From: Tubulanus polymorphus
Taxonomy: Eukaryota; Nemertea; Palaeonemertea; Tubulaniformes; Tubulanidae
DNA length: 64,000 bases
Assembly (NCBI RefSeq): GCF_964204645.1
Contig: NC_134030.1
Span: forward strand, 9,794,278-9,858,277
Reading direction: 5' to 3'
Shown here: positions 3 through 54,194 of the stretch, piece by piece
Layout of the letters: the number at the start of each line of letters is the position of its first letter
How positions within the stretch are numbered: the stretch's first letter is position 1
Made by a program: the position numbers and the translations under genes
Notes under the pieces: generated by a model
The model's input: the letters and a program-made list of their open reading frames with translations, nothing else
What the model was told of the DNA's origin: nothing
Databases searched by the model: none

Positions 3-166
3 TTATATCAACGAATACGAAGACTTGAAAAATGAATTTGTACCAAGAGATCCACCAGAATGCATCGCGGAGCCTCCAGACTGGACACTGCCCTGTTCCG
101 TGACTTTCTGCATACATGATGAGCTACCAATCTGTGAGTATCCTTCGGGACAAGTGAGGATCGGTT
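3..166 (-). other. Exon 20: C-terminal tail with two cysteines
   Basis: The acceptor TGTTCTATTTGCAG at 167 joins in phase to the donor at 946. The exon encodes PILTCPEGYSQIGSSSC and then a Gly/Ser/Gln-rich run, ending in TAA at 5-3. The tail has no recognised domain; CPEGY...C resembles short cysteine loops of secreted proteins. The plus strand is also open here and carries four cysteines, but only the minus reading joins a known gene in phase. Confidence 0.6.
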
Positions 167-3100
167 CTGCAAATAGAACACCAAGCAAAGCATCTGAGGC
201 CGGTTCCTATAGTCGAGACTTAATAGCATAAGTTGTCATAAATCTGAAGACTGAGCTGACGTTTTTCTAGATTAGCAACGTCATATCCTACTATGGTAAT
301 CTTAGAGTGGTCTTAAAGTCTAAGCGACGACTATGGAAACGGTCCAAGCAGAATAACGAAGCTTGAAATGCATCGTAAGGAAAAAATATCGCATGGTTTT
401 ACGCTCACTCACCCCCTGCCGAATTGATGCAATAAGGTGTCTGCTCCACCAATTTTGTGCCGGCCGGACATGTGACCTTCGCGCCCTTGACCGCCAATTT
501 TTCCAAACAATAACGCCCTGCTTGTACCATGTCCGCTGCACAGTGATGAGTTTGACCTTTGATATTGAAAATAGTTACTTAAGAGTTCTACTACATTCTC
601 TTATGTAACTTAATGCGTTATTTAAGGGGTTCTGCGTTCGAGTCGATGTGCACTACGTCATCAGCCGTTTAAAAAGTAGCAATTTCAATTGTGAATTTCG
701 GATGTGATGGATTTTAGAGATGATGTGCACCACGTCATCAATATATCGGGGCTACATTGGTTGATATATTGAAATCCGAAATAACCATCTTGATCCTTAT
801 GATTTATATTTAATTTATATATTACTTATCGTTTGTTTTCTTGTTCATCGGGGATTCAATGGCTATTAGATATTGGATTTACATGTTTCCAAGGTTATTT
901 TGCAAACTATCCATTTTAAATCGATATCGTTTCAACATAACTTCACCTGGTTTAACGAACGTTCTAGTCATATGTTTCACGTATCCTTCCATTGAGTTGA
1001 ATTGGGTGAAATATTCCACTAACCAACTTGCGCTCCACCTTTCGCTCCCAGACAGAATGCGGAAGAAGCCGAATTTTTTGGCTTTGAGTTTGAAGAAATA
1101 CGGTTTCATCTGGTGTTGCACAGGCGTTGGAGGGCTGTAGTACCCGACGACAACGATGCTTCTGTCGAAACCATCTCGTAGTCTAAAATGGAGAATAACT
1201 GGTTACAATCTCAGCTGGAAGTTGTTAAAAATTCAAATAATCAAAGCACACAGCCCAGGGAATCGGGAAACAGTGCAACAGAGAAATACAGAATCAGACA
1301 TGTTCAATCCCGAAACCACGTTTCTCGTTTTACGTAAACGCACGTGACCAGGGAAACGCTCGTAAGCATTGATATTTGATTCCGTGTTTCTGCGTTTGCT
1401 GCCTGTTATCCTGTGCCGGGTTCGTTGGGCTTAAGATTATCACATCGAATCTTACGTACTCGATATTGGAGGCCATTTTCCATTGGTTGACGTAATCGGG
1501 TTGACCAGGTTCCCGCCTCAACTGCATCAACTGCATCACGTAGAAATGCTTCTTCGTTTCGTCGGTAAACTCGAGCTTCACGTTCGGGCTCGATTTCATT
1601 CCTGATGAAAATGGTGACCACTATCAATTAACACTTTGTTAACATGATACACCAAAAACAAATACGAACGGGACTTTGATTTCATTTTGATACTATGCAC
1701 TAACAATGGGATACTGGGGCCGTAATCACGAAGCACCCGTAATCCCACGTGTCACGTAACTCTGCCCGTAAGTTCGCCCGTATATCTTACGTGACACGTA
1801 ACATACGGGTGCTTCCTGAATACGGTCCCTCGCAACACCAGATGGCACTACAAAACACTAGCTTAAATTGTTGTAAATAGTGTATATATATTATTAATAA
1901 CTTTGTTATATTATATCAAGACAAGCTTATATTTTCTGTCGAACGTAAATATTGTATACTTTACAGTCTCCCTCCATGTACCACAGAAAAGATTGTAGTG
2001 TAATAAAATCTTTATCCTTATCCTTATCCGTAGTGAAAATTGGTTCATTTTCAATGAAATTTGCACCTGAATTTTGGGCTTCCAAATCCGAAAATTATCG
2101 AACGATTAATCGGATAGATATAACATTGACATTCTTACTCAGTGTATGGTATAGATTTTACTGAAAATTGATTTACTAATCGAAATAGTTCACTCGAATT
2201 TAAATGAAATGTAGAAGAAATTGAAGTGCGGTAGCCTAGTGCCACTAGCGATCACCGAATCCTCGCTTCCCTCGGTAGCCTTGCCGGTATTCCATTGATA
2301 GCTTTTCTAATATGAATAGTTTGATTACGACTTTCGCGTACTACACTGACCTGTGATAATTACATACATCCGTGTGTACTTTGGCCCTAATCGGAATAAC
2401 TGGACGAGGAATTGCAGGAATTGCACGGCGATTTGGAATTCGCCTTCACCGACCGATGCATCGACCATGAAAATCATATCCATTCGCATTTCCAGCATCA
2501 AACCTGTTATAAAATCAAGTGGATTGAACGAGGGATATGTGTTACGTTACGTTGTTAAGAAGACAATAAGGAAAATGATAAACAATAAGCATAGAAAAGT
2601 TACCGGTAAATTCGAACTGAGCTTCGCTTGGCGCCAACGATTGCATCATTTGTGCTGACGTGCTGACGCTGCTTATCACCTCGAAATTTGTAACCTTTTT
2701 CAAGAATTCCGAATCTACGCTTTGTCCAATGGGGACGATGTATCCTCGCGCGTTGTTTCGACTCAAAGTGTTTTTGTAAGTTTCGGAGAACAACGTTTTG
2801 AACTGCGGTTTATCTTGTTTGTCCGGGTTGAAGGCCCCGATCAGAATCGTAATTACACCAGCCGATGGCTCTGGTCGTTTGAATTGCCTTAAATGAATAT
2901 GTAATCACCTGAATTTTACTTCAAATTATGATTTCTGTATTAGTATTAGTATTTGAAAATAACTCAATCGCGAGACATGTTGCGCCATTAGTGAATTCAA
3001 TCGCAGCAATCGATGGCAGGCGAGGATCCACCAGGTTCGCTAGTAGTCGCTCTGTCTTGCGCGATTGATTTCATCTTCATTTCAAATGAAACTGAATGGA

Positions 3101-6100
3101 TTTTTTCTTAAATGAATCAATAATTAATGAAAACAATACCGATATCTGAGAAAGAAAAATGACGAAGATAATATATAGATTCGGGAACCTCAAAATTCAT
3201 ATCAAAGTTCATGGAAAATGAACTAATTTTTACAACGTAAGACTGAGTGCTCGTCCCGCCATCTGGTGGCCAGTTCCCCATTCAAAGGCCCTTTTTACCA
3301 GCACAATCGGAACAGATTAGCAATTTGGATTATGTAGCCCATTAGTTTCATTTAATAACCGGGTATGTTGGTTGATGTGTAAGGAAACGTACTTGGAATT
3401 AATCAAATTGATTGCAGTTTTCACCAGTGACGTGTAGTCCGGTTTGTTGCCAGTGTACTTAATATTCTCAATCGACGTGACGTAACCCGTGATGTCATCC
3501 GCCGTCGGAGACTGCTGCTTTTCAGCCCGCGGGAATCTAGACGTTAAAACCTTTTCGGAAACACCTGTGACGGAATAATCAAGAATCATACGAGCAAGGC
3601 AATAAGCGAGGTAGAAAAAATAGCGACCTCCTTCATACGCAGATGACTGGAAGGTCAGTTTGTACGGGCTACTTCATCAAGGCGAGTTCGATTAGTCTCT
3701 GCCTTAACCGGAATTCTCTTCTCGCCGACCAGAATACGCTCCATACACCTTTCCGTAATATCATCAATCTGTTAACATGGCATAACGTGGCTGATTTGGG
3801 CCATTTTTTCTGTATAGGCACGATGACAAATTTTTAGACAAATGTTTTCTGGCGCAAGAACTCAAAAAGGTTTCCAAACGAAAAAAAAACCTTTTTGTGA
3901 GAATTCTCGCGCGAGAAAACAAAAAAGGACCAGCGAGAAAAGTTTTCTATCGTGCCTAATGCCGTACAGAAAACAATTTTAGTATCTTAGTATGGGCCAA
4001 ATTAACCACATGTCTAACCTGGTATGTCTAAGTCCGGTAATCCGGCATAGCCATTCATAAAATGGAATACGTTCATTCGAAACCAGACCAACTCGCTATT
4101 CTGCGTGAAAAACTCGATCACGATAGCATTCGATATGGATATATTGAATTTCATTCTTTAATGATTAGGTTCACGTTTACCTGTGATGAAGACAAATATC
4201 CGTGTATTTCGTGGTAACTGTTTTATAGTTCGTAAAAAGCCGATCAGCATAGTTTTCGCTTTCTTGAAACCATCCAGTCCAGTTTTTCTCGAGGCGTCGA
4301 CGAATAATATGAAATCTAGCGGTTTATCGACAGCAGCTACAGCGAGATATTAAGAAACAAATACGTAATGTACATTATGTAGATCGCGTTAGAAGTCGTC
4401 ATTTCGGAAATCGTTCCGGGGCTTTTTCAGCGAATGATTCCGAAGGCGCAGTTTAAACTCAAATTGAGACGTATTACAGTGCAGCCGCGTGTGTCAACAA
4501 AATGGTGTCGAATCCGTTCAAATTTTCAGACAAAAAGAGGGCTACTTTGATGGTTAACAAGGTTTCATCTTGAGCGCGAGTTTCCACTACCATAGCGCGG
4601 GTTACCTGGTGAAGCCACTATACACTAGCGAAAGCCCGTACTTTACAATAACATTACAGTTACCCTTCAAACTATTGTCCTATTTGTCTTCACGTTTGCA
4701 ACGTAGACAACCAGATCGGTTTCGCCGTTACGTAGTTTGGCGATATCTATCCGAATCCTTTGCTCGTTTTCCGTGTATAAAAGAAACGTTTTATTCCGAA
4801 CGGAATGTTCACATACCTCCTGAGGGATATGGAATTCCGACATTATTTGCATGTAGATTTCGTAGTCCCGTTTCTTTTAGGGCTCCTACTAAGAGAAGAG
4901 AATGACAGCAAATTGAACAAATTGAACTACGAGACCTAGCTATGCTCACTGGCTTACTCGTGGACATACATCAAGTTTATTTAGTTTGTAAGTTCGTGGT
5001 TTTATAATAGAAGACATTGGTTGATTTGCTTCTTCACTGAAAATATAAGTTTGGTGGACTAAATATTAGATAGGATGAAGGAAACGAAAAAATATGTCCT
5101 TCTCTTACAGAGCTTGTATCATCAGGAAGGTGAATAACTAAGAATACTAATATTTCCGCTCACCTGGTTTTCTTCCAGTTGGTGCCCCTCCAGTTGGTGC
5201 CTTTCCAGGTGGTTTCACTCCTGTTGGTGTCTCTCCAGACGGTGTCTCTCCGGATGGTATCTCTCCATGTGGATTCCCTCCAGTTGGTGTCTCTCCAGAT
5301 GGCGTCTCTCCAGCTGGATTCCCTCCATTTGGTGTCTCTCCATGTGGATTCCCTCCAGTTGGTGTCTCTCCAGATGGCGTCTCTCCAGCTGGATTCCCTC
5401 CATTTGGTGTCTCTCCATGTGGATTCCCTCCAGTTGGTGCCTCTCCAGATGGCGTCTCTCCAGCTGGATTCCCTCCGTTTGGTGTCTCTCCAGATGGTGT
5501 CTCTCCAGGTGGATTCCCTCCAGTTGGTGTCTCTCCGGATGGTGTCTCCCCATGCGGATTCCCTCCAGTTGGTGTCTCTCCAGATGGTATCTCTCCATGT
5601 GGATTCCCTCCAGTTGGTGCCTCTCCAGATGGCGTCTCTCCAGCTGGATTCCCTCCGTTTGGTGTCTCTCCAGATGGTGTCTCTCCAGGTGGATTCCCTC
5701 CAGTTGGTGTCTTTCCATGTGGATTCCCTCCAGTTGGTGCCTCTCCAGATGGCGTCTCTCCAGGTGGATTCCCTCCAGTTGGTGTCTCTCCGGATGGTGT
5801 CTCCCCATGCGGATTCCCTCCAGTTGGTGTCTCTCCGGATGGTATCTCTCCATGTGGATTCCCTCCAGTTGGTGTCTCTCCAGATGGTGTCTCTCCAGGT
5901 GGATTCCCTCCAGTTGGTGTCTTTCCATGTGGATTCCCTCCAGTTGGTGCCTCTCCAGATGGCGTCTCTCCAGCTGGATTCCCTCCATTTGGTGTCTCTC
6001 CATGTGGATTCCCTCCAGTTGGTGTCTCTCCAGATGGCGTCTCTCCAGCTGGATTCCCTCCATTTGGTGTCTCTCCATGTGGATTCCCTCCAGTTGGTGT

Positions 6101-9100
6101 CTCTCCAGATGGTGTCTCTCCAGGTGGATTCCCTCCAGTTGGTGTCTCTCCGGATGGTGTCTCCCCATGCGGATTCCCTCCAGTTGGTGTCTCTCCAGAT
6201 GGTATCTCTCCAGCTGGATTCCCTCCGTTTGGTGTCTCTCCATGTGGATTCCCTCCAGTTGGTGTCTCTCCAGATGGTGTCTCTCCAGGTGGATTCCCTC
6301 CAGTTGGTGTCTCTCCGGATGGTGTCTCTCCATGTGGATTCCCTCCAGTTGGTGTCTCTCCAGATGGTGTCTCTCCAGGTGGATTCCCTCCAGTTGGTGT
6401 CTCTCCGGATGGTGTCTCCCCATGCGGATTCCCTCCAGTTGGTGTCTCTCCAGATGGTATCTCTCCATGTGGATTCCCTCCAGTTGGTGTCTCTCCAGAT
6501 GGTGTCTCTCCATGTGGATTCCCTCCAGTTGGTGTCTCTCCGGATGGTGTCTCTCCAGGTGGATTCCCTCCAGTTGGTGTCTCTCCGGATGGTGTCTCTC
6601 CAGGTGGATTCCCTCCAGTTGGTGTCTCTCCGGATGGTGTCTCCCCATGCGGATTCCCTCCAGTTGGTGTCTCTCCAGATGGTATCTCTCCATGTGGATT
6701 CCCTCCAGTTGGTGTCTCTCCAGATGGTGTCTCTCCAGGTGGATTCCCTCCAGTTGGTGTCTCTCCGGATGGTGTCTCCCCATGCGGATTCCCTCCAGTT
6801 GGTGTCTCTCCAGATGGTATCTCTCCATGTGGATTCCCTCCAGTTGGTGTCTCTCCAGATGGTGTCTCTCCAGGTGGATTCCCTCCAGTTGGTGCCTCTC
6901 CAGATGGTGTCTCTCCAGGTGGATTCCCTCCAGTTGGTGTCTTTCCATGTGGATTCCCTCCAGTTGGTGCCTCTCCAGATGGCGTCTCTCCAGCTGGATT
7001 CCCTCCATTTGGTGTCTCTCCATGTGGATTCCCTCCAGTTGGTGTCTCTCCAGCTGGATTCCCTCCATTTGGTGTCTCTCCATGTGGATTCCCTCCAGTT
7101 GGTGCCTCTCCAGATGGCGTCTCTCCAGCTGGATTCCCTCCGTTTGGTGTCTCTCCATGTGGATTCCCTCCAGTTGGTGTCTCTCCAGATGGTGTCTCTC
7201 CAGGTGGATTCCCTCCAGTTGGTGTCTCTCCGGATGGTGTCTCCCCATGCGGATTCCCTCCAGTTGGTCTCTCTCCAGATGGTATCTCTCCAGCTGGATT
7301 CCCTCCGTTTGGTGTCTCTCCATGTGGATTCTCTCCAGTTGGTGTCTCTCCAGATGGTGTCTCTCCAGGTGGATTCCCTCCAGTTGGTGTCTCTCCGGAT
7401 GGTGTCTCTCCATGTGGATTCCCTCCAGTTGGTGTCTCTCCAGATGGTGTCTCTCCAGGTGGATTCCCTCCAGTTGGTGTCTCTCCGGATGGTGTCTCCC
7501 CATGCGGATTCCCTCCAGTTGGTGTCTCTCCAGATGGTATCTCTCCATGTGGATTCCCTCCAGTTGGTGTCTCTCCAGATGGTGTCTCTCCAGGTGGATT
7601 CCCTCCAGTTGGTGTCTCTCCAGATGGTGTCTCTCCAGGTGGATTCCCTCCAGTTGGTGTCTCTCCAGATGGTGTCTCTCCAGGTGGATTCCCTCCAGTT
7701 GGTGTCTCTCCAGATGGCGTCTCCCCATGCGGATTCCCTCCAGTTGGTGTCTCTCCAGATGGTATCTCTCCATGTGGATTCCCTCCAGTTGGTGTCTCTC
7801 CGGATGGTGTCTCTCCAGGTGGATTCCCTCCAGTTGGTGTCTCTCCAGATGGTGTCTCTCCAGGTGGATTCCCTCCAGTTGGTGCCTCTCCATGCGGATT
7901 CCCTCCAGTTGGCGCCTCTCCAGATGGCGTCTCTCCAGTTGGATTCCCTCCATTTGGTGTCTCTCCATGTGGATTCCCTCCAGTTGGTGTCTCTCCAGAT
8001 GGTGTCTCTCCAGGTGGATTCCCTCCAGTTTGTGTCTCTCCGGATGGTGTCTCCCCATGCGGATTCCCTCCAGTTGGTGTCTCTCCAGATGGTATCTCTC
8101 CATGTGGATTCCCTCCAGTTGGTGTCTCTCCAGATGGTGTCTCTCCAGGTGGATTCCCTCCAGTTGGTGCTTCTCCAGATGGTATCTCTCCATGTGGATT
8201 CCCTCCAGTTGGTGTCTCTCCGGATGGTGTCTCTCCATGTGGATTCCCTCCAGCTGGATTCCCTCCAGTTGGTGTCTCTCCATGCGGATTCCCTCCAGTT
8301 GGCGCCTCTCCAGATGGCGTCTCTCCAGTTGGATTCCCTCCAGTTGGTGTCTCTCCGGATGGTGTCTCTCCAGGTTGATTCCCTCCAGTTGGTGTCTCTC
8401 CAGGTGGATTCCCTCCAGATGGTGTCTCTCCAGTTGGTGTCTCTCCGGAAGATTTCTCTTTTGTTGGTTTCTCTCCAGACTGAGTGTCTCTGTTGGATGG
8501 CCCCCCTTCAGCTGGTTTCCCTCCGGTTGGCTTTTGTTTACCTGGCGTCTCCTCGCTCGATTTCTCTTCACTGGAATTTTCTTCACCCGATTTCCGTCGA
8601 CTCGTAATTGACATGATCATTTTTCGGACCGAAATGAATTTGATAATGTTGTATTTCATCAGCCATCCCGGAATTCTAGCCCTCCCCAATGGAACACGAG
8701 CAAATTTGAATTTTTCCTTAACGAGTTTAGAAAAATATGGTATCATTTGCTTTGACATCGTCTCAGCAGGATTGTAACGGCCGACGAATACGATGGCTCT
8801 CTTAGGGACATTTCGAGGTCTGTAAGTGAACATAAATGAATGATTTCATCTGCACTGAAAATTCGAAGATTTGTCCTCACTCCATGGCGGGACAATAAGG
8901 GACGACGTGCATGGTTATATATCGCAGCCGATTCGTGCGTAGCGTAAAACGATGATATACGCACGTCGAAAAGATTTTTTTTTTAATATCGTACTTTGAA
9001 GATGTATATTTTTATTCGAATCGGCTAAGAAGATAATGCACAACGTCCACGATAAGCCGCCATACTTACTGAATGTCGGTAGCCGTTTTCAATTGGGTGA

Positions 9101-12100
9101 CGTAGTCGGGTCGTCCAACCTCGTACTTCAAGCTTGCCAACTGGGTTAGATAAGATTGCTTGTCCTTTTCATCGGTAAACTCTAGTTTTACGTTGGGGCT
9201 CGATTTGATTCCTGTTAAGATGGTGATGGTGCACAAGTGATAACAGAAGTTAGTGATTCCTGGTTAGATGGTAATGATGGAATATTTTACGGAAATTTTA
9301 GCAGAGAGGGCCAAGTGCAATGTTTTCCCAGATAACTGCTTTATATAACGATGAAAAATGCATTCATAAAAGTTTATGGACTACATACAGCAATTACCAA
9401 CAGATTGATATCGCTATAAAAAAATCGAGAATGGAATGGGGTCAAGACTACCTAAACCTTCCGCCTTGGATCCGACCTGGGCCCTGGTGACCACTGAAAT
9501 CTACTCACCTGTAATTATAACGTAAAGCCGCGCGTATTTGGGTCCCAATCTAAATGTTCGGACAACGATTTTCACGAAGTTCACGGCATCTCGGAATTTT
9601 CGTTCGTCGACCGATGCGTCGATCAGGAAAATCAAATCCATGTGTATCTTCACTCTTGGTAGAGCTGGTTATCAATGTTGCGTTAGGAAATTTGAAAAAG
9701 AAATTAAAAACAGCGGATAAAAAACGAGAAAAAAAGATTTTTCGTTCGCTTGAAAAAATGTGGACCGGTTTTCAGAGCTGCCATCTGTTCCTAATTTTCA
9801 GTATTTGTTACTATTTCATTATGAAAAACTGATTTATTTAATGCGTACAGAAATATGAAAGATGTTACTGAAGGTCTGACTGTTGATTACTGATCAACTT
9901 TAACATTTCCTTCGATATTTCAACGGAATGTTACTGAAAAGAATTCAATTTGTTACTGATAGCACATTTTTGGAGGTTGGCGGCCCCGAGTTTTGCTCGA
10001 GCAGTCGACTAACAGATCTAGACGCTGTTAGTAATGAGTTACAGATAGGGAAAAGAAACCCCTAAGAAATCGAAAAGTGTGCTTCAACGTGGACAAACAA
10101 TACACAGCTCCCGTGCAGATGTAGTGTCCGTTTTGGGTTTGGTATTGATTAAAGTGGAGACAAGGTCTGGAAACTAGAAAATGCCTGGGCCCATTGTCTA
10201 GAGACGGTACGATACGTCCCCCCCCCCAAAAAAAGTCTGTATACAAATCCTGAATTCATCGAAAACGAAAATCTTTATCAATGATTTAGATTCTGAATCA
10301 ACCGCAAGTGCGTGAGTCGATAAAACTGATACATACTGCAAGGCAATGTCATTGATAGTTCGGTTCATACCTTGATTTGACTTTTCTCTACTTATTTCTT
10401 CACTCGATTTCTTTCTTTTCGATTTATTCCTATTCGCTTTTCGTTTGTTTGTTTTTTCTTTGCTTGGTTTTTCTTCACTACTTGAACTCTCTTCACTTGA
10501 ACTTTCTTCACTTGAATTTTCTTCATTCGAATTACTTGTTTGGTCTGCGACGTAAAATTAAAAAGGTTGCCAACTGAAGTTCATTTTCTACGCGAGTTTA
10601 CCGTAAAGTTGATTAGCTCAAAACAGTTGAAGATACGTAGATAAGAAAAGTTACCGGTATTGAGTGACGTTGATCGTAGAAATTTTCGAATTTCACTGCT
10701 AGGAATAACCCGGAAATCTGTGATCGTTCTCAAGGATTTTGAATCGACGCTGACTCCCATTGGCACGATGTACCCTCGTACGTTTTTCAGACCCAAGGTT
10801 TTAAAGAACGTCATAAAATATGGTTTATCTTCGTCTTCCAGGTTGAAAGCGCCGATCAGAATGGTCGATACACTCACCGGTGGTTCTGGTCGTTGGAACT
10901 GCCTTAAATATAAAGAATAAGCTCCACACTTTATACGACTGATCGTCCTTTCTATACTGATAACTCAAAATCGCTAAATCACAAGGCGATTTCGTGCTGC
11001 CATTGGTGAATGCCTGGGGCTGGTTTTATAGGCTGGTAATCTGAACCCTGGGTTTAACTCAATGAAATTATATCGCATTTACCCGCGGATTTAAGATACT
11101 ACCAGTCTATAAAACTAGGGCCTGGTCATGGCACATCGAAATGGTCACATTAACCGATGCCCGTTATCGTAATTCAAGTATTTTAACGTACTTCGATGTG
11201 ATAAAATTGACTGCAGTTTTCACCAGTAATGTGTAACCCGGTTTGTCACCCGTGTACTCAACAGTTTCGATAGATTTGACAAAACGTGTGACGTCATCCG
11301 CAGTCGGAGACCGTTCATCAGTTGGTGGAAATCTTAGCTGTATAACTTGATTCGTAACACCTGCAAAAAATCAAATTCAGAATTTACACGAATCATTGAT
11401 ATTTGAATTGATGATTATTTTATGAATATTCAACTTGATTGGCATCCTCGTGCAGGAGGAATTCGAACCTCGCTACTTCGATGATGTCATTCTAAGCCAA
11501 TCGTAAATCCTGTTTTATTCTAACCCGGGTTTTTCCATCTACAGTTATACAACAAGCAATCTGATTGGTGCCGCAAGTTTTCTTGCATGTACCCACGCAC
11601 CCGGTCAAGTGAGGCGAGGGTTCGTACCGTGGTTCGTTCGTGGGGTTCGTTCGTGGCTGAATGTAGCGATGCCAGAAGGTTCTAATCCCTGCCGAATGAG
11701 AATGCTCGATCGGTCACTGAAGCCCCAAGTATAATGATTATCAAATGGCTAAGTATTGTTTATTGTATGTCATTGAATGTCCAGAAAATGACGCTATGGA
11801 ATAACTAACTTTTCAAATCAAAATGTTTATCAGTTAGGCCTTCTGCAAGGGGACTTAACAGAAATATATGTTGTATATTGATGGGCGCTTAACAACAATA
11901 TATGTATTACATAAGAATATCGCAACTTTGATCAAATAAGGCGAGTCGTGAACCGCAGAATCGAGTAATCATTCCGTCCCAATGAAAGCCATTTGAAAGG
12001 CCGACTTCAGGGTTCACTCACCTGTTATAAAAACGAATATCCGTATATTTTGCGGCACCTGGGTTCCGCGACGTAACCAGTCGACTAAGATCGTTTTCGC

Positions 12101-15100
12101 TCGCTTGAAATAAATCGGACCGGTTTTGCTGGAGCCGTCGATGAATATGATGAAGTCTAGACGCCGCTTACCATGCTGAACTATAACAAATAACCAAATA
12201 ACGAATGGCGTGTACCTAGATAGGCCTCGATTGCAATGAATGTTGTAAGATGCACACGCCAAATGGGCATCATTTTAGCCAGGTGTCCTATGAGTACTCC
12301 CCAGGAACAAATTCGAAAATTGAATGCAAAGAGAGGAACTATTTCACTTCCTCTGATTTTGGGGTGAAATCTATGGTGGCTGGTAACGGCCACGTGCATC
12401 ATTTTTCTATGCCCTCGATTACTTATAAAGACCGAAACTTATAAAGTAAAGACGAAGTTTTCATTTTTGCTATCGGATGAACATCTTTCTTCGAAAAAAA
12501 AGTTGAAGAAAATTCGGCGAAAAAGTGATCGTAGGATACATTTCTATCAGAAAACAACCACGCGATAAGTCAGCGGAACAGTAACTCATACGTTGGCGAT
12601 TACTTTTTTGCGTGGAAAAGTGAGTCGTCCTTGACTTATGTCCCCAAGACGCCACGGTAATCGGATTTTTTTTGCAAAACGAAAATTTTCTGCGAGAAGA
12701 ATTTCCAAAACAAATGATTTATCTCAATGACTTGAATCCAAAAATTCCACAAGAAATCATTTATCTCCCAGGACTCTTTGTTACTAAACAGCCACCATAA
12801 ATGGCCAATAGCATGCAAACCACAGAACCACAGAAGTCTTTTCTACTTACTGTCTATACTCGGCAAATGAACTGCAAAATTTAGAAAAAAAATGAATATC
12901 AAAACGTAGTCCTTATTTGGTCCATGGACCTACGTGCGTTGTCCTAATTTTTACAATGACGACAAAGTAGAACAAGCTTACTTACCAGAATAGCCCTTCG
13001 CGTATTCGGTCAGTCTTGGGAAACTCGATGGAAACTGAATTTGATTTCCTAAATATTGAGAGATTTAAAATGTTCAGTCGTGACTGCACGGTAAATTCTC
13101 AACCGCAACAAATTTGGAAGCGAGCGTGAAATCAACAAAAAGAAATATTTTTCAAAAGATTTTGTTAAGTAAGTGACGTGCAAACGATGATGATATCGTA
13201 CCAATTTTGGGAAGATTCTTCGCGATCTGGATTCCGATAGATTGTGGATCTTTCTGCGATATTATCGGAACCTGCGATGGCAGCGCACCTGGTTCTATGG
13301 TCGCCGAGAAAGGTATGACATAAACGGAGACGTATTTCGTCAGCGTCAACCAGACGAAGTCGAACATCATTTTCGTCTGCGTGGTCGTACCCTTTAAAAC
13401 GCCGCCAAAATATAGAACCATTCGAGGATTGGCGTCGGGCGAGCGAAAAAAGTAACCGGTTCTCAGGACGTAATTTATGTACGCTAGTCGAAGATCCATT
13501 TTCATAGGCGCATACTGATGATAGCTTCTGCCGATAGCTTTCAGTAAAGCCGGTACCCGTTTTGGTCTTCTCAAAACAGCGTGAGTTACCTTTGCGCCCC
13601 TGCCATTCAAAACTAATACCATCAGGTAGATTATCTTGGTTTGTCGTAACATTTGAGGGAGTGCAGCTAGGAGGGTTCGCTGGGTTTTATCGATAGTCGG
13701 TTTCGAAGATTCGTCGATGACGACCATTAGTTTCAACGCAGAGCTTGATTTCTTTTCATGCGATTTTCCCTTTTTGCGTCGCTCTTTGCTCGAAGAACCA
13801 GAACTTTCTTCGCTTGATGTTCCCGTATTGCAGCCCATTCTCCCTTTACGGTATCGGCGTCGTTGGTCCATTGAATCAGGAATGTCTTGCTCGTCGCTCA
13901 TTTGACCATGCCTTAAAATCGTCGATGAAAAAAATGTTCATGCGTAACGTGTTTGACTGTACTATACGGAAGCGCCCTGGCGACACGATTTAAAGAAAAT
14001 ATAATTTTTCTAATGAGTTTTTTCTGACCACGAAATCATTTACGATTAATAAAAACGGTTTCTTCGATTTAAATCGGGTTAAAAACTCGCCAACGAAGGT
14101 TTTGCCGATTTCGCGACGAGTTATCGATGCGAATACTCGAATTTAGAATCGACAAAACCTTTTACTGATCGTAAATGAATTTGCGTTGAGTCAGGAACTC
14201 AACATTAAATCTGAAAAAAAAGATTCTATAATCGAAAATAATTTACGTTGAGATATGACTCGAATTTCTATTTTTCCTAAATGATCTCCACGGGATGCTT
14301 CCGCACTTTACATTCAAATATACTGAGATAAGTTCGATTCCATATTTTTGTTCCCTTAATTATCAAGTATTACAAAATACAGAATCAGCACGTACATGTA
14401 CCTACAACGATATCACTAGCGTTATTAGGCCGTTATCTTTTTAAGTTATAAGAATTATTGAATCGGACGTACAAGTTGGGGATTATAGATGGCTTAAACA
14501 TTGTGAGACGACTTAAGCAAGTTTGACTTTTAGTAACGACGCAGCATTAGACCGTTTTTCTATTTTTTAGATAACGGATCAGCCACCGAACATTTCCTAT
14601 TTCTAGGTGTGAAAAAATACAATTTCTAGGGGTGAAAAAACTTCATTTTCATTTTTCCCACCGCCCCCGTATTTTCAAGCATAGATATGAAAATAGAAAT
14701 AAACATTTATAATTTTTTCCACTGTCACATCATCCTTTGACATTACACACAAAAAATCAAAGTGGACGATGGTGTTCTAATGGATATTTTGTCGGTTTCG
14801 TTCAGTAAATAGCCTGACTTGCAAAAAGGCGGCATAGTAATAATATAGGCCATAAATAGACAATATTCGGGTATCATTATCCAAAACGACCTCCAAAATA
14901 AAGCAATCTGTTTCCAAATTCTATTTTCTAATTCACCCCCTCCCCAATCATGTCAAGTCTATCAAACCAGTAATTCAACTTACAATAAAAACGGGCTTAC
15001 TCCCATAAAAATATTTCTAGCTATATTGAAATAAGAATATTTGTTACCATCGGTTTGATATCGAGTTTTTCTTAACAAAATAAATATTCAAGATATCAAC

Positions 15101-15501
15101 TCAGATTTAATGATTCATATTTCAAGTTATGAGTTGCCTTACCGTTCATTGTGTCGCGAGATGACCTTCTTTATCTTCAGACATTTTACGCTGCCGAAAT
15201 CTTTAAAATTTGAAGAAAAATAGTGGAAAAAATGTTCACGTGAATCTCTCGAAAGCGACTAAACAGCTTAGAAGTTTATGACAGTCGTCTCTTCGTATAT
15301 TGCTGAATAGCGCGTGAGATATAACTCCGGATATCAATAATAGACTATAAGGCCTTGTATTCCATAGATAAATTTGCATAAAAAGATACTAGCTGGCAGA
15401 ATTCATTTTTCAATTGTTCAAAAGATGATTTATGCGCGTAACTTACTTGAAAGATTGACAGCGATGTACAGAATAAGGATCGCCAATGTCCAAACCCTCA
15501 T
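3..15501 (-). CDS. Secreted five-vWA-domain protein with giant Gly/Pro pentapeptide linker (20 exons, 2,329 aa)
   Basis: Coding exons, 5' to 3' on the minus strand: 15501-15447, 15200-15143, 13911-13202, 13048-12986, 12871-12851, 12180-12022, 11360-11192, 10902-10655, 10544-10371, 9664-9509, 9211-9070, 8819-5164, 4888-4817, 4336-4181, 3564-3393, 2887-2604, 2503-2351, 1601-1460, 1182-947, 166-3. Seen: every junction is AG/GT, every phase matches, and the 6,990 bases end in TAA at 5-3. Layout by residue: signal peptide 1-18; vWA1 about 96-270; vWA2 306-490; Ser/Glu linker 495-552; vWA3 555-724; pentapeptide linker 725-1870; vWA4 1895-2098; vWA5 2099-2275; Cys-containing tail 2276-2329. vWA2/vWA4 and vWA3/vWA5 align along their whole length and share exon structure. 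vWA domains are extracellular protein-binding modules found in collagens, byssal thread matrix proteins and shell proteins. The role here, an extracellular matrix, adhesive or biomineral protein, is inference. No transmembrane segment is seen. An annotation pipeline could split this into two genes at the repeat, but phase continuity across 5164/4888/4336 argues for one. The poly(A) site lies outside the window. Confidence 0.85.
618..770 (+). repeat. Dispersed repeat shared with 20200-20520
   Basis: GGGTTCTGCGTTCGAGTCGATG, CACTACGTCATCA, and then a second ACGTCATCA followed by GTATCGAGG/ATATCGGGG-type sequence, appear in the same order in both copies. Non-coding; class unknown. It lies in the last intron of the vWA gene. 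Confidence 0.4.
1716..1829. mobile_element. 114-bp foldback MITE
   Basis: The two ends are near-perfect inverted copies over about 44 bp (GGGGCCGTAATCACGAAGCA against GGGACCGTATTCAGGAAGCA read from the other end). Almost the whole element is palindromic. It lies in the intron between the 2503-2351 and 1601-1460 exons of the vWA gene. No transposase is encoded. Confidence 0.6.
2030..2300 (+). repeat. Dispersed repeat, copy 1 (family also at about 2940-3260 and 19190-19510)
   Basis: A diverged copy: TGGTTCATTTTCAATGAAAT, then CACTAGCGATCACCGAATCC and TCCTCGCTTCCCTCGGTAGCC. It shares order and spacing with copies at 2940-3260 (opposite strand) and 19190-19510 (same strand). It is non-coding and its class is unknown; a SINE or MITE is possible. 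Confidence 0.4.
2604..4336 (-). other. vWA domain 4 (exons 4336-4181, 3564-3393, 2887-2604)
   Basis: Strand 1 is LDFILFVDASRKTG and strand 2 TRIFVFITG. GNKPDYTSLVKTAINLI is the threonine loop, ITILIGAFN strand 4 and GYIVPIGQSVDS strand 5. It aligns with vWA2 over its whole length and has matching intron phases. Its last exon (284 bases against 248) runs directly into vWA5 with no Ser/Glu linker exon between, which differs from the vWA2-vWA3 arrangement. Confidence 0.8.
2940..3260 (-). repeat. Dispersed repeat, copy 2
   Basis: On the minus strand it carries ACTAGCGAACCTGGTGGATC followed by CTCGCCTGCCATCGAT, matching 19425-19475 closely. It lies in an intron of the vWA gene between exons 3564-3393 and 2887-2604. 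Confidence 0.5.
4817..4888 (-). other. Exon 13: 72-base linker exon before vWA4
   Basis: A strong pyrimidine tract (CATTCTCTTCTCTTAG) precedes it and the donor GGAG|GTATGT follows. It encodes ETGLRNLHANNVGIPYPSG in the phase needed to join exon 12 to the vWA4 exon at 4336. Length is a multiple of three, so skipping it would also keep frame. It occupies the place that the 63- and 21-base exons hold before vWA2. Confidence 0.6.
5180..8460 (-). repeat. Coding tandem array: 15-bp / 45-bp units encoding a pentapeptide linker
   Basis: About 3.2 kb of 15-bp modules, usually in threes, forms a 45-bp higher unit that encodes GGNPPGETPSGETPT. The general pentamer is G-[G/E]-[N/T/I/A]-P-[P/H/A/S/T], about 215 copies. 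Variants occur in recurring blocks: GGNPHGETPNGGNPAGE, GEIPS, GEAPT and GKTPT. The array lies wholly inside exon 12. The unit has no stop codon in three of the six frames, so long open frames on both strands here are by-products. The true frame is set by vWA3 upstream and the CCAG|GTGAGC donor at 5163. Thr-Pro density suggests O-glycosylation, and Glu makes the linker acidic. Both are inference. Confidence 0.9.
8600..9664 (-). other. vWA domain 3 (exons 9664-9509, 9211-9070 and the start of 8819-5164)
   Basis: Strand 1 is MDLIFLIDASVDERKF and strand 2 ARLYVIITG. The middle exon (142 bases, the same length as its vWA5 counterpart) begins GIKSSPNVKLEFTDE. The third part, RAIVFVGRYNPAET, is strand 4, and the domain runs out near SVRKMIMSITS. 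The same exon then continues without a break into the Ser/Glu and pentapeptide linker, so the repeat reading frame is fixed by this domain. Confidence 0.8.
10371..10544 (-). other. Exon 9: Ser/Glu-rich linker between vWA2 and vWA3
   Basis: The 174-base exon encodes a low-complexity linker with ENSSEESSSEESSSSEEK followed by a Lys/Arg-rich half. The acceptor is GTCGCAG at 10545 and the donor CAAG|GTATGA. The many Ser-x-Glu motifs match the consensus of secretory-pathway Fam20C-type kinases. Phosphorylation is inference from that consensus. Confidence 0.65.
10655..12180 (-). other. vWA domain 2 (exons 12180-12022, 11360-11192, 10902-10655)
   Basis: Strand 1 reads LDFIIFIDGSSKTG and strand 2 IRIFVFITG. 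The middle exon ends in a helix after GDKPGYTLLVKTAVNFI, the position of the MIDAS threonine loop. The third exon gives STILIGAFN and GYIVPMGVSVDS, matching vWA strands 4 and 5. Introns fall at phases 1-1-2-1, the same as in vWA3, vWA4 and vWA5. The aspartate normally found at strand 4 (TDG) is replaced by GAF. Its closest relative in the window is vWA4 (2604-4336). Confidence 0.8.
11016..11122. mobile_element. 107-bp MITE in a vWA-gene intron
   Basis: Inverted ends: GGGGCTGGTTTTATAGGCTGG and, from the other side, GGCCCTAGTTTTATAGACTGG. Non-coding, between exons 11360-11192 and 10902-10655. Confidence 0.55.
12372..12799. mobile_element. 428-bp MITE with TATGGTGGCTG ends
   Basis: Begins TATGGTGGCTGG and ends CAGCCACCATA. 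The same ends delimit two short neighbours at 27178-27215 and 27217-27336, so this is a family. It lies in a vWA-gene intron, just before the micro-exon in gene orientation. Confidence 0.45.
12851..12871 (-). other. 21-base micro-exon between vWA1 and vWA2
   Basis: A 21-base exon (TTCATTTGCCGAGTATAGACA) is flanked by TTTTGCAG and GTAAGT and encodes VHLPSID. It keeps phase 1 between the 63-base exon at 13048-12986 and the vWA2 exon at 12180. It could be skipped without changing frame. Confidence 0.6.
13202..13911 (-). other. Exon 3: Ser/Glu/Lys linker plus vWA domain 1
   Basis: One 710-base exon holds the whole first vWA domain, unlike the other four, which are each split over three exons. 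It opens with a Gln/Arg/Ser/Glu-rich stretch containing SSEESSGSSSKERRKKGK. The domain then begins at LKLMVVIDESSKPT (strand 1, degenerate MIDAS). PRMVLYFGG matches vWA strand 4 and YVIPFSA strand 5. The acceptor is TTTTAAG at 13912 and the donor TTG|GTACGA at 13201. The ATG at 13901 lies inside the exon, but codons before it are open and in phase with exon 2, so it is not the start. Confidence 0.75.
13920..15140 (-). other. Intron 2 of the vWA gene; nothing else seen
   Basis: AT-rich intron between exons 2 and 3. No further coding segment, RNA gene or clear transposon end was recognised. The other vWA-gene introns not described separately are likewise without visible genes. Confidence 0.5.
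15447..15501 (-). other. Exon 1: signal peptide
   Basis: ATG at 15501 opens MRVWTLAILILYIAVNLS, a typical short secretory signal with a hydrophobic core and small residues at the end. It is followed by the strong donor A|GTAAGT at 15446. The one-base overhang joins in frame to the exon at 15200, whose 58 bases carry a basic stretch with one cysteine and end CG|GTAAGG. That in turn joins exon 3 at 13911. This exon is too short for ordinary ORF detection and was found by searching upstream of the first vWA exon for a matching phase. Confidence 0.7.
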
Positions 15502-15737: not shown

Positions 15738-15744
15738 TTTTTAT
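15738..15744 (-). promoter_or_regulatory. TATA box of the five-vWA gene
   Basis: The minus strand reads CTATAAAAAGAGGCG here, a canonical TATA box about 240 bp before the ATG at 15501. A start site about 30 bp further on would leave a 5' UTR near 210 nt if it is unspliced. The distance is inferred; the motif is seen. Confidence 0.5.
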
Positions 15745-15759
15745 AGCATGGAATTATCG

Positions 15760-16791: not shown

Positions 16792-18490
16792 TTAATTGAT
16801 TGTCGAAGAACTACTTTCTCGCCTATTTGAGACGTTAATCAACGTGCTCTCCAGATTTTTCCATCGAGGATCGTCGACCATGTTCATTCGACTGATCGTT
16901 TTCGCCTCGTCCAACATTTTCTGTTTTCGGGCGTACAAAAGCCTGTTCAGGTTTTCGTTCGCTTTCACCATCATCCTCGACGGCAACGTCTTCGTCAAAC
17001 GCACGATCACTTCGTCGTCGCATATAGGATGTCGTTTGTCGCGGACCGTCGGATATCTTCTCGACGAAGATTCTCGGCTGCGAGGAATGTCGTGATCGAC
17101 CTTCTCCTTTTCGAACGCGTCACATGTATCGCAACTATCGCCGATCGAAGTATCTTTGAAAACGCCATCGTCGTGCAGCTGCGGTCGAAGGTCTCCAGCC
17201 CTTTCCCGGTCAGTTCTTTTGCTAGCGATCAACCATTCGTGAATTTCTTTCGACATATCGGTTTCCGCGGTGTGAAAAACGTTGTCGCAATTTTCTTCGA
17301 TTTTTTCATGCTCTGGCGGTGCCTGATTACTAGTTCCATTGTACATTTTTCCAACCCTACACCGACCGGCCTCTTTTTCTGGAATGGCTGGGAATTCGGC
17401 CGCTATTTGTATCTTAGTTAGGCTCGCCAAATCCTTCATGCTACAGAACGATAACCGTCGCAACTTCGATAAAGGATCGTCTATTTCGCCGATGATTTCA
17501 TCGTTACTTAAAGTCTCCCCGCGGGTGGTGGGAACGATATCCTTAGCGCGGTCATTGAATGCGGCCAGCTTTTTCTTTCTTTGAACTTGAAGCGAATTGG
17601 CGAATATCCCGAAAGCTTTTGTTTTGATCAACGGTAACCGGAAGCGATTTTGTCCAGCCCCGGCTGAATCTCTTTTCTCACAAATGGGTCGGTCCGGTGT
17701 CACGTCTGTAAGACACTCGACAGATTTATCACCTCTCCTATTTTCTATATCTTTCCAGATGTTACCTGTGGAGAAAAAAGAAAAAATACGACTCAAAAAG
17801 TAATACTTTTTGGAAATCGAACGAGTGTTTGAGAAATCTGTAGCCGGTATGCGAACTTTCGAACACTGTGGTATACACACGAAGAAAAAATACAAGTTGC
17901 TCGCATTCGTTTCCATTTTGTTTCTACAACCATATATTGTCGGGATCAATCGCCAACTTAAAGAATATCCGTTAACTTGCCTGCAAATCTAAGTCTGAGA
18001 TCTTGGTCGAATATTTGATTCATGAAGAATTGTCGTTGAAACCAGTTCATCGTGTTCTCGCGGCGCCTCTTTTCGATGCGAATCTGGCGCAGTTTTTTGT
18101 CGAGTTCCCTTTCTTGCCACGGGTTGCTGTTGAGGATAACGGTGGATATGGACGCCTTGCCGGCTGGCGTACGCTCCATGGGAACCTTGATTCCGCGCTC
18201 GAACGAGCCGGACAGCTCGGCCTCGAGGTCCGGTGATTCCAATACACAGCGCTTTCTTTCTATTCGGTGTCTACCTGTAATAAGAATGTTTCTAGGAAAT
18301 TGTTTTCGGATAGAAATGTCTCGATATTTGGGAACCCAAAATGCGAACAAAGTTGATCGTATGACATCTATGAAATTTTGTTGTACGAGTGACAGGGTGG
18401 AAAAAGTCATTTCAATTTATTTCTGCTCTGAAGTCAAAAAGGCTGAAAATACTGCTTCTTACCATTCAGGTAGGCTCCGAAAGCGGCCAT
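16792..18490 (-). CDS. Unrecognised charged protein, 431 aa, three exons
   Basis: Exons: 18490-18463 (MAAFGAYLN plus one base), 18274-17981 and 17765-16792. They give 1,296 bases in frame, stop included. The ATG has no upstream in-frame alternative that I can see. Exon 2 is strongly basic, with RELDKKLRQIRIEKRRRE probably forming a helix and NWFQRQFFMNQIFDQDLRLR after it. Exon 3 is acidic and Ser/Glu-rich, with no recognised domain, signal peptide or membrane segment, so it is probably cytoplasmic or nuclear. The second intron starts with GC (CAG|GCAAGT) and ends CTCCACAG. This gives continuous phase, whereas the neighbouring GTTAAC is a poor donor. Read-through would instead end six codons later (KLTDIL). 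I do not recognise the family; function unknown. Confidence 0.6.
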
Positions 18491-21428: not shown

Positions 21429-24226
21429 TTAAATCAACATTACGACATTTACATCTGGCTCAATGCCTTCGTCAATTTTTGAATCGATTACGTTTCTCTG
21501 ACGACCAGAATCATTTTCATTAAGTGTCAGGTTATTCAGTTCTTCGTATGGGCCACTTCTGGTTGAGTCGCCCCTTTGCACGGGATGTGTCGGTAGTTCG
21601 GACGCGTCCTCACTCGGCACGGGCGGTAACGCCGACGTCCGCCTATCCGTACCGGAGACGCCCATTTTCGGGCGCCTTTTGCGTCCCGGTGAGTCTGATT
21701 TCCCGTTAATTTCGTCGGGCTTCAGGTAGTCGGACGACGCAGACTCGCCGCCGGTAGCCGCCTGCTGGCCGTGCAAGTTGTGAATCTGCGAATACCGAGG
21801 CGGGCGCGGAGACTGGTCGTAGTCTACGTATAGAGGATCGTTCACGTCCGGTGAGTCGCAACCACTGCTGCTGTCCGAACTGACGTCACGCGGTTCTAGA
21901 TAATCCGGGTCGTATGCCTGACGTTTTAGATACGACGGTTGTTTGCCTTGGGGAGAGACGAGCGGACTCCTGCCGGGCAGCACTTGTCCCGGTACCGGTT
22001 TGAGTTTTTCGTATTTTCTTTCCTTAGCCGCTGCCTCTTCTAGCGAACTCAACGAAGTGTAATCCGTCTGTTGAGATATACCGTCACCTACGCGCGCGGT
22101 ATGGATATCGGGACTGACGGAGGCGCCCTCTATTACTTGCAGATACGGCTGGTTGTGTATAGACGAACGAGGGGACGTAGAATTCGAATTCACGTCCGTG
22201 CTCCTCATGGAATCGTCGTGTTTCGCGTACGCGCCGTTCACTCGCCCGTTGGCGATAACGACCAGCGACGACTGACTGGTCCCTAAATCGGGCGCCATTT
22301 TCATATCACGTGGTACGCGTCTGAAGACGGTATAGTAGAATTTGTCGGATGTTCTCGTCAGGGCGATGAACCCTCCGAGAAACAGTGCGACGAGGAAAAC
22401 GGTTACTACTATTCCAATTGTGAGATTTCGGGATGAATCGTCGGGCGAGCTTTGGCCAGACGGCCGTGACGTCATGACGAACATGGTCGTCTGGTAATCG
22501 TCGCCGATAGTTCGAAAAACCGAACACGATTCGTAATTGCAGACGGGCAGTTTGATGCATATCGCGTAATACGTGTTCGGCGCCAATTCGAATAACGGGA
22601 ACGTACGTCTTGCTACGTCGACGCCTCGCGCCACCGTTTCTACGGTACTTTTTCCAGCGTCGATGTTTCTCAAGTTGATATCCACGTCGGCGCCACCTAT
22701 TGTACAATCCGAACGCCATTTGAGAACGGTACTGACGTTCGTGATATTTGATGTGCTCAATTCGTACGGACGTAGGCGCTTGCAGTCGGCTGGGGACAGG
22801 GTTGGCAGAGTGGTCATTCTGGGCTCGGGTTCCGCCGACGGTGAGCTAATTGGTCCCGTTGTGGTTGCCAAGGAAGGGCAGAACTGCGACAGATCCGTAG
22901 ATTGAACGTCGAATGGCCTTTCGTTTTTCGGCACGTAGCACGCGGCTGCTGCGGCAAAAATGATACTTCGACTAGCGAACGTATCCTTCAAATCGTTCAG
23001 CGTGCAATCGCACAAAAACTTATTTCCTTCGAGATTAATTTGCCACAAACTCGACAAAGGTCGCACCACGCCCGGATTTATCGTGCTCAGTTCGTTGTTA
23101 GATAGGTCTATGCGCTGCAACGCTGTCAAGCCGTCGAACGCCCGAATGTCGATAGTTTTCGTACCCATCCGCGACAATGAAAACGTCACTAAACCAGTCA
23201 ACGTGGTAAAATCGCTCGGCAACAGTTTGACGATCCTATTCCCCGATATATCCAAACTGCGCAAAGCACTCGACCCTTGAACCGATCTTATCAGCGATTT
23301 CGGGTCTATTTTGTTGTCGGAAAGGTCTAGCACGGATAGATGGCTACAGAATGAGAAAATGCCTCCGAGTAAAATTTTGATAGCGTTATGACTAATGACG
23401 AGTTCTTGTAGCCTAGGTGTACTGGACGTGCATAGGTCATCGGGTAATGTCGTGAGCGCGTTGAAGCTTACATCCAACGTGACTAGATATCGGAGTTTAC
23501 CGACGAAATCTGGAAAACAATACAAAACATTCTAACGATTAACATCTTAAAGTTGGTGAAAGGGACACTTGAATTTAATTTTGAACTCAAAACACTGCGA
23601 TATCAGGCCCGTATCAACTGGGGGTAGCGAACGAACCCATAGAATTTTTTAAGTGCCCTTCAAAAAGTCAGTATGAAAAAAATCGGGTCAAGAACTTTCG
23701 AAATTTGGATTAAACTTTTATGTTTTCTTTGGAAAACGAAAACTAATCAATTCTCAAATTATCTATTCAGGTAGTCCCGAAAAATCGCGTTTAGGATCCG
23801 TTCTTTTTTCGATAGGAAAAAGCCCCTTTTCGTTGTGAAAAAGGGCCCTTTTCTTGAGATAGAATTGCCCCTCAAAAAAGCTAGGCACCGGTCTGGATGT
23901 ATCATAGCCGGCTTCTTTAACTCAAACGTTTTATTTATCTTTTTTTTTTCTCCTAGGTTAGTCTGAGCATACTTGGTATTTTTCACTGATCTCTGGTGGC
24001 TTTATCACCGTATTACGCCTAGAAACTTACCTAACGAAGGGATTGAGTTGTTGGACAAGTTTAACGCGACAACGTGTCCACCGATTCCAGCGGGGACGCT
24101 TGTCAGACGACGGCTACTGCAGTCTATCGTATTGTCCGTCGGGCACACGCACTCGGGCGGACAGGCCGCCGAAGCCCGATGAGCGACAACTGTGTATGCG
24201 ACGATCCACAATACTGTACAACTCGT
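21429..24226 (-). CDS. LRR and fibronectin-like single-pass receptor (5' end missing, 758 aa seen)
   Basis: Two exons are seen: 24226-24031 and 23509-21429, joined in phase across TTAG|GTAAGT and TTTTCCAG. The first gives the end of a signal peptide (LWIVAYTVVAHRASA) and an LRR N-cap, CPPECVCP...DC. Then come about seven leucine-rich repeats (LxxLDLSxNxI type), an LRR C-cap (NKFLCDC...C...C), and a Thr/Pro stalk. A cysteine-bearing fibronectin-III-like segment follows, then one membrane helix (GIVVTVFLVALFLGGFIAL, about residues 429-449). The roughly 310-residue cytoplasmic tail carries tyrosine motifs: YEKL, YLEP, YSQI, YLKP, YEEL. Layout resembles neuronal or immune LRR adhesion receptors. 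No in-frame ATG precedes the signal sequence, and the acceptor at 24227 opens in phase 0, so at least one short upstream coding exon remains unfound. Ligand unknown. Confidence 0.75.
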
Positions 24227-46716: not shown

Positions 46717-46985
46717 TCGGTCGGTCGGTCGGTCGGTCGGTCGGTCGGTCGGTCGGTCGGTCGGTCGGTCGGTCGGTCGGTCGGTCGGTCGGTCGGTCGG
46801 TCGGTCGGTCGGTCGGTCGGTCGGTCGGTCGGTCGGTCGGTCGGTCGGTCGGTCGGTCGGTCGGTCGGTCGGTCGGTCGGTCGGTCGGTCGGTCGGTCGG
46901 TCGGTCGGTCGGTCGGTCGGTCGGTCGGTCGGTCGGTCGGTCGGTCGGTCGGTCGGTCGGTCGGTCGGTCGGTCGGTCGGTCGGT
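46717..46985. repeat. Perfect (TCGG)n tetranucleotide array, about 67 copies
   Basis: 269 bp of uninterrupted TCGG. Read on the minus strand it gives an open frame of Pro-Thr-Asp-Arg repeats; this is a by-product of a 4-bp unit with no stops. It lies about 110 bp past the 3' end of the sulfotransferase gene, next to a fragment of the TAGCCGCG MITE family (47010-47070). Confidence 0.9.
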
Positions 46986-53700: not shown

Positions 53701-54194
53701 CGCATTTCAACACACTCACTATATAATCGATTATTCGTGAAATGATGCATTAACAAGCAAATTCTCGGAGGTTACTTGCAGTCCAATATATGAGATACGA
53801 AACATTGTGTGGCAAATGCCAATGGTCAAAATTTGATCGATTAACGCGAAAAGATAAAAAACCTAATTGAATTTGGTATGATAATCATTTTCACTGGAGG
53901 TTTAGCATTGACCCGCAACTCAGTCAATACAACGCTAATAAAACGTCTCCTCATTGGTGGTCCATTCAGTCTTTCCTATTCAGAATGGTCTTACGAATAT
54001 AATATGATACAAAGCGCACAATAGAATAATGAAACTGTTTGTGCGGAGATTTAAGTTGGGCGGACGTAGAACAACGATTTGAAGAATCGCAGCCATTCGA
54101 CACGATAAGTTGAGCGATTTTGTCTGAATTTCAAGTACTTAGGGTTTTCGTCGTGTTCTTTGACTTCGGTGCGTCTGGCTCCACGGCTTTTTCA

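Follow-up and report, generated by a model that had tools for sequence, protein, structure and literature searches.

A predicted secreted multi-vWA protein with a 215-unit pentapeptide array in Tubulanus polymorphus

The window analysed here is a stretch of 64,000 nucleotides from Tubulanus polymorphus. Its first 15.8 kb raise the question of whether the minus strand encodes a single protein that combines several vWA-type domains with a long Gly/Pro repeat, and of what kind this protein may be. Our analysis indicates that the gene is real, of animal type and probably secreted, and that it combines about five vWA-type modules with pentapeptides repeated over 1,075 residues. We consider it fairly likely that the gene encodes one secreted extracellular structural protein.

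Exon structure of the gene

The gene was rebuilt as a minus-strand chain of 21 exons and 20 introns, encoding 2,376 residues (window 1-15.8 kb). Splice sites were picked by hand. All 20 introns are GT-AG with consistent phases, and the frame runs from an ATG at 15501 to a TAA at base 3. A TATAAA box 244 bases 5' of the ATG (15740-15745, minus strand) is a candidate promoter. It is only suggestive, because the same strand of the window contains 42 TATAAA sequences.

The N-terminal region is assembled from small exons and one large one. Exon 1 (55 bases, 15447-15501) encodes the start codon and a hydrophobic, signal-peptide-like N-terminus, MRVWTLAILILYIAVNLS, with a maximum hydropathy of 2.79 in an 11-residue window. 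Exon 2 (58 bases, 15143-15200) ends in a GTAAGG donor. A Ser/Glu/Lys linker and vWA1 share the single exon 3 (710 bases, 13202-13911), which has no Pfam match and was assigned by profile alignment. Exon 4 (63 bases, 12986-13048) and exon 5, a micro-exon of 21 bases (12851-12871), were placed by splice sites and phase. vWA2 is divided among exons 6 (12022-12180), 7 (11192-11360) and 8 (10655-10902), supported by splice sites, phase and paralogue queries. Exon 9 (10371-10544), placed by splice sites and phase, encodes an SSEE-rich Ser/Glu/Lys linker.

The first two parts of vWA3 are located in exons 10 (9509-9664) and 11 (9070-9211), both covered by a PF00092 match. Exon 12 (3,656 bases, 5164-8819) lies inside the open frame 5147-8845 and contains the end of vWA3, a further Ser/Glu/Lys linker and the array. 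Exon 13 (4817-4885), placed by splice sites and phase, measures 69 bases, or 72 if the upstream TAG of a TAGTAG double acceptor is used. vWA4 is formed by exons 14 (4181-4336), 15 (3393-3564) and 16 (2604-2887), supported by splice sites, phase and paralogue queries, and vWA5 by exons 17 (2351-2503), 18 (1460-1601) and 19 (947-1182), supported by splice sites, phase and sequence queries. Exon 20 (144 bases, 413-556, phase 1 to 1) encodes the first half of a Cys module and has homologues just beyond the window. Exon 21 (3-166), placed by splice sites and phase, completes the module with a CPEGYS...C segment and adds an S/G-rich tail and the TAA stop, with the 3' end unsettled. Pfam gives no match above cut-off for the Cys segments, NCBIfam none for three protein pieces, and Rfam no gathering-score match in the window.

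An earlier, sequence-only reading had described 20 exons and 19 introns. The count is corrected to 21 and 20; exon 20 (556-413) had been missed. The minus-strand gene itself and the small exons of 55, 58, 63 and 21 bases given there are present in the rebuilt chain. So is a fifth small exon, given as 72 bases, which can also be read as 69. The 2,329 residues reported earlier equal our 2,376 minus the 48 residues of exon 20, plus one residue from the 72-base form of exon 13. Apart from the missed exon and the unsettled 3' end, our evidence agrees with the earlier description of a secreted structural protein that combines multiple vWA domains with Ser/Glu linkers and a Gly/Pro array. The mantle and foot, proposed there as tissues for expression analysis, presuppose a mollusc, to which nothing in our analysis points. 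Models of mollusc haemocyanin and of the annelid linker gave no match, but neither did their controls, and COX1 was not found in the assembly. As the case shows, phase-based reading can skip exons and claim too much about a 3' end.

The vWA domains and the metal site

The earlier reading counted five vWA domains and proposed a PF00092 search of the translation as a check. One of the five, vWA3, scores above the cut-off of 23.8 (33.1 bits). vWA5 (21.5), vWA4 (15.8) and vWA2 (13.7) stay under it, and for vWA1 the Pfam scan of window protein pieces gave no PF00092 match. An exon-by-exon PF00092 search of the whole genome listed 126 matches, none of them in the window. A joint profile of vWA2-5 matches a von Willebrand factor chain (E 2.5e-5) and a chain named as its A1 domain (8.2e-5). 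A profile of ten domains, composed of vWA2-5, one domain from the paralogous C5 locus and five from the C1 locus (see below), matches the same two chains at 1.3e-13 and 3e-13, respectively, and collagen VI alpha 3 across ten stretches at E 6.1e-66. The strength of this profile is not the window gene's own, because five of its domains come from C1, and one of these by itself scores 41.3 bits against PF00092. Among solved structures, those of the vWA domains in von Willebrand factor (A1) and in collagen VI match the domain profiles best. By sequence comparison, vWA2-5 jointly are assigned to the vWA superfamily (PF00092).

The remaining domain, vWA1, is weakly supported. It aligns with the ten-domain profile over 156 columns (hhalign, E 1.7e-4) at a probability of 49%, which falls to 0.7% against vWA2-5 alone and 1.5% against the first C5 and C7 domains, and hmmsearch gives E 0.055. 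Because of these values, vWA1 is at best a diverged vWA. No paralogue of vWA1 was found, and its single-sequence structure prediction (pLDDT 35) is too low to use.

The other four domains are related in pairs. vWA2 and vWA4 are 53-55% identical, vWA3 and vWA5 48%, and we assign both pairs to internal domain duplication on this similarity. In all four domains the introns are in phase 1 and then phase 2, and the phase-1 intron follows the (F/I)ITG strand. A false gene model is unlikely to yield such regularity. The dN and dS values are 0.31 and 0.92 for vWA2/vWA4 (ratio 0.34), and 0.40 and 1.35 for vWA3/vWA5 (0.30), which points to purifying selection on the vWA domains.

The MIDAS motif consists of DxSxS plus an Asp in the third loop. 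We scored the second Ser of DxSxS and the third-loop Asp, leaving aside the second-loop Thr. In the ten-domain alignment, no domain has Ser at position 5 of DxSxS, and none has Asp before the invariant Gly of the third loop (0 of 10 each). vWA1 reads DESSK and FGG and keeps neither element. As judged from these alignments, all five vWA domains lack the two MIDAS elements. The A1 domain of von Willebrand factor functions without a metal site, as we propose for the vWA modules here. The third-loop Asp is also absent from all nine domains read, of 15 matched, at further multi-vWA loci that carry no arrays.

The pentapeptide array and three paralogous loci

The array (5222-8446, minus strand, residues 777-1851) lies within exon 12 in a single frame with the end of vWA3. 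It consists of 215 units of 15 bases, 3,225 bases in total, with the pattern G-[EGK]-[TNIAR]-P-[TSHPAN]. Gly is found in all 215 units and Pro in 213. The array contains 136 acidic and 4 basic residues (net -132), and the remainder of the protein 117 acidic and 198 basic (net +81). S-x-E occurs at 87 sites in the protein, of which 27 lie outside the array. A 26-base array probe, allowing up to three mismatches, gave 78 matches, all within the same array, and a literature search with the repeat strings returned no papers.

A query with vWA4 matched C5 at 27% identity (E 2.4e-5), which marks a distant relative, and C1 more weakly. Querying with the C5 sequence then located a third locus on C7. 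The three loci were read in genomic sequence as ordered, unspliced exons. At the C5 locus, two pairs of vWA domains flank tandem Pro/Ser/Lys exons (a 256-base repeat, 2.5 copies), and the second pair is followed by a Cys segment and an S/G/M-rich tail. At the C7 locus, an 87-base repeat in 10.2 copies separates four vWA domains from two more, after which come a Cys segment and an S/G-rich tail; the third and fourth vWA domains are nearly identical and separated by a 27-base repeat (at least 5.7 copies). At the C1 locus, at least ten vWA domains precede an open frame of 784 residues, which contains a 129-base repeat in 7.7 copies together with 96-base repeats. This frame is followed by CPxG...C segments, two vWA domains, additional CPxG...C segments and a Pro/His-rich tail, and a shorter Lys/Glu/Thr/Pro stretch is located among the earlier vWA domains. 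At C7:14483824-14486640, two near-identical vWA exon pairs flank a repeat of nine residues (GGTTTPTGN), apparently a recent duplication within the gene.

In the common layout, vWA domains are followed by a Pro-rich array, a further two vWA domains, Cys segments and a low-complexity tail. At all four array loci read, the main array precedes the last two vWA domains, followed by the Cys segment or segments and the tail. At C1, Cys segments also separate the array from these two domains, and C7 carries a further, smaller array in another place. With 4, 3, 5 and 11 inter-domain gaps, the shared slot would arise by chance about once in 660, a post hoc figure that uses our own counts and loci that may share ancestry. 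The earlier reading could not name the combination. It is not singular, as three other loci carry the same layout with different arrays. By eye, the four arrays have no common unit. Their net charge per 100 residues is -12.3 in this gene, +11.9 at C1, +10.3 at C5 (for three exons copied by hand) and -2.0 at C7 (from an array of the 29-residue unit).

For comparison, three other multi-vWA loci of about 8 kb each were picked by clustered Pfam matches, leaving out the remaining PF00092 clusters, and none of the three has a tandem repeat. The genome may hold additional array genes, since further PF00092 clusters lie outside the reading. Tandem multi-vWA loci without arrays are found at C2:24956-24962k, C6:6335-6341k and C2:15964-15971k.

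The sequence comparison suggests that the four loci form a family that evolves fast and encodes structural or adhesive proteins. The array seems able to vary freely in sequence and charge from one paralogue to the next, with the vWA scaffold and the slot retained. Such a series within one genome, in which scaffold and slot seem fixed and repeat sequence and charge are replaced, is a natural test of which array features matter in structural secretion. The paralogue arrays also provide new repeat motifs for use in biomaterials.

The coding status of the array and the unity of the gene have to be weighed together. It is very improbable that the array is a non-coding minisatellite in a chance open frame, spliced out or left untranslated. 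Its openness is not by itself evidence of coding, because the 15-base unit leaves five of the six frames free of stops over 3,225 bases and the remaining frame with a single stop. Between unit types, 10 of the 23 single-step changes are synonymous in the coding frame, against 6.3-6.9 expected; one plus-strand frame also gives 10, and the synonymous excess is weak. However, the array extends the unbroken frame of the vWA3 exon and keeps its Gly and Pro almost throughout, and long open arrays are found in the corresponding slot at C1 and C7. The coding strand of the array contains a single GT, against 361 on the other strand, so that the array offers almost no splice donors. An improbable reading, less so than the minisatellite, is that two adjoining genes, one with vWA1-3 and the array and the other with vWA4-5 and the Cys module, have been wrongly fused. 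The small exon 13 with its ambiguous acceptor would allow this in a model built from genomic DNA. Against fusion, exon 12 exits in phase 1 and exons 13 and 14 carry on in phase. An array before two more vWA domains at the three other loci, likewise read in genomic DNA, also argues for one gene.

A longer gene is a considerably more credible alternative, which we place somewhat below an even chance. The gene would extend past the window, exon 21 would not always be terminal, and up to three Cys modules would be included. This concerns only the 3' end and is compatible with a single secreted structural protein. Two further copies of the exon 20/21 pair (20', 21', 20'' and 21'') are found downstream on the same strand, in order and in phase, at about C6:9792.5-9794.1k, outside the window. 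The dN/dS values are 0.42/1.09 for 20/20', 0.11/0.32 for 20'/20'' and 0.24/0.75 for 21/21' (ratios about 0.26-0.39). Exon 20 is supported by this double recurrence of the Cys-module pair with dN well below dS. The 'complete' gene of the earlier reading is not established for the same recurrence past base 3. Where exon 21 continues to its stop, exon 21' has the donor GTAAGT. Exon 21, in contrast, has no GT donor like the gene's own 20 (best score 3.3, against a range of 4.5-12.1), so base 3 can be the true stop. An AATAAA at C6:9793919, 361 bases beyond the stop, also speaks against the longer gene. The gene may end at base 3, or some transcripts may use the downstream Cys modules.

Proposed function and known systems

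The predicted features most likely describe a secreted structural or adhesive matrix protein. The vWA modules would be folded, metal-free anchors that bind partners or one another. The Gly/Pro array may form a disordered, hydrated and possibly elastic spacer whose strong acidity contrasts with the basic remainder of the protein. Phosphorylation of the Ser-x-Glu linkers is a guess from kinase specificity, and the Cys modules may cross-link the protein ends through disulphides. Anchors, spacer and Cys ends together could produce an extensible material, for which we rate an elastic matrix, a coat and a glue as equally possible. Opposite array charges could attract paralogues to each other if they are co-expressed. 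We regard as unlikely, though worth stating, a model in which a metal-free vWA scaffold with a swappable slot allows paralogues of opposite charge to co-assemble by complex coacervation, with vWA-vWA contacts and disulphides locking the product into an underwater matrix or glue.

Several known systems resemble parts of this architecture. In spidroins, conserved folded ends frame a fast-changing repeat array. The plan is similar here, although the folds differ and vWA domains are located on both sides of the array. PTMP1 of the mussel byssus is a secreted vWA protein of an adhesive thread; to our knowledge, it has no such array. Its name is absent from the 46 PDB matches of the vWA2-5 profile and from the best 60 of 131 of the ten-domain profile. 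Unlike collagen VI, the gene has no Gly-X-Y helix; all 215 array units are five residues long, and the partner domains differ. A literature search combining vWA with adhesive, shell, repeat and phylum terms, covering titles and the starts of abstracts with most subscription journals outside its scope, found no description of the architecture.

It is highly unlikely that the protein is a shell-matrix protein of the Pif/BMSP family. Bivalve BMSP has four tandem vWA domains (PMC11291548). Tandem vWA domains and low-complexity regions are common to BMSP/Pif and the window gene. BMSP/Pif differ by CBM_14 and laminin G domains, whereas the window gene has the 215-pentapeptide array and Cys modules. 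No CBM_14 or laminin G match was found in six window protein pieces, which leave out exons 1-2, exon 9 and the array; the laminin G search covered these pieces and not the C1, C5 and C7 loci. All three CBM_14 matches found in the genome lie in one cluster on C11 (C11:5814609-5828081), with none close to any of the four genes; weak matches may have been missed.

The slug glue of Megaustenia siamensis contains matrilin-like vWA proteins linked to adhesive secretion, described as vWA plus EGF (PMC11178922). vWA domains and adhesive secretion would be common to both, and EGF is theirs. No EGF match was found in the six window protein pieces, and a matrilin was rejected.

The rest of the window contains several other features. 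Upstream of the gene, two minus-strand frames of 398 and 152 residues (16792-18416) have no Pfam match at E 0.001. A 700-residue leucine-rich-repeat frame (LRR_8) is found at 21429-23531 and a sulfotransferase (Sulfotransfer_2, E 3.5e-43) at 47096-48076, both on the minus strand. A tyrosine-recombinase-like fragment (56489-57004, minus strand; Phage_integrase 25.0 bits, cut-off 27.1) lies near a weak endonuclease-reverse-transcriptase match (59229-59819; 20 bits, cut-off 27.4). A perfect (TCGG) microsatellite at 46717-46985 (67.2 copies, 100% identity) leaves several frames open on both strands. Two very similar rhodopsin-type GPCR frames on the plus strand (54114-55277 and 61997-63289; 7tm_1, 36.3 and 34.3 bits) are apparently a tandem duplication.
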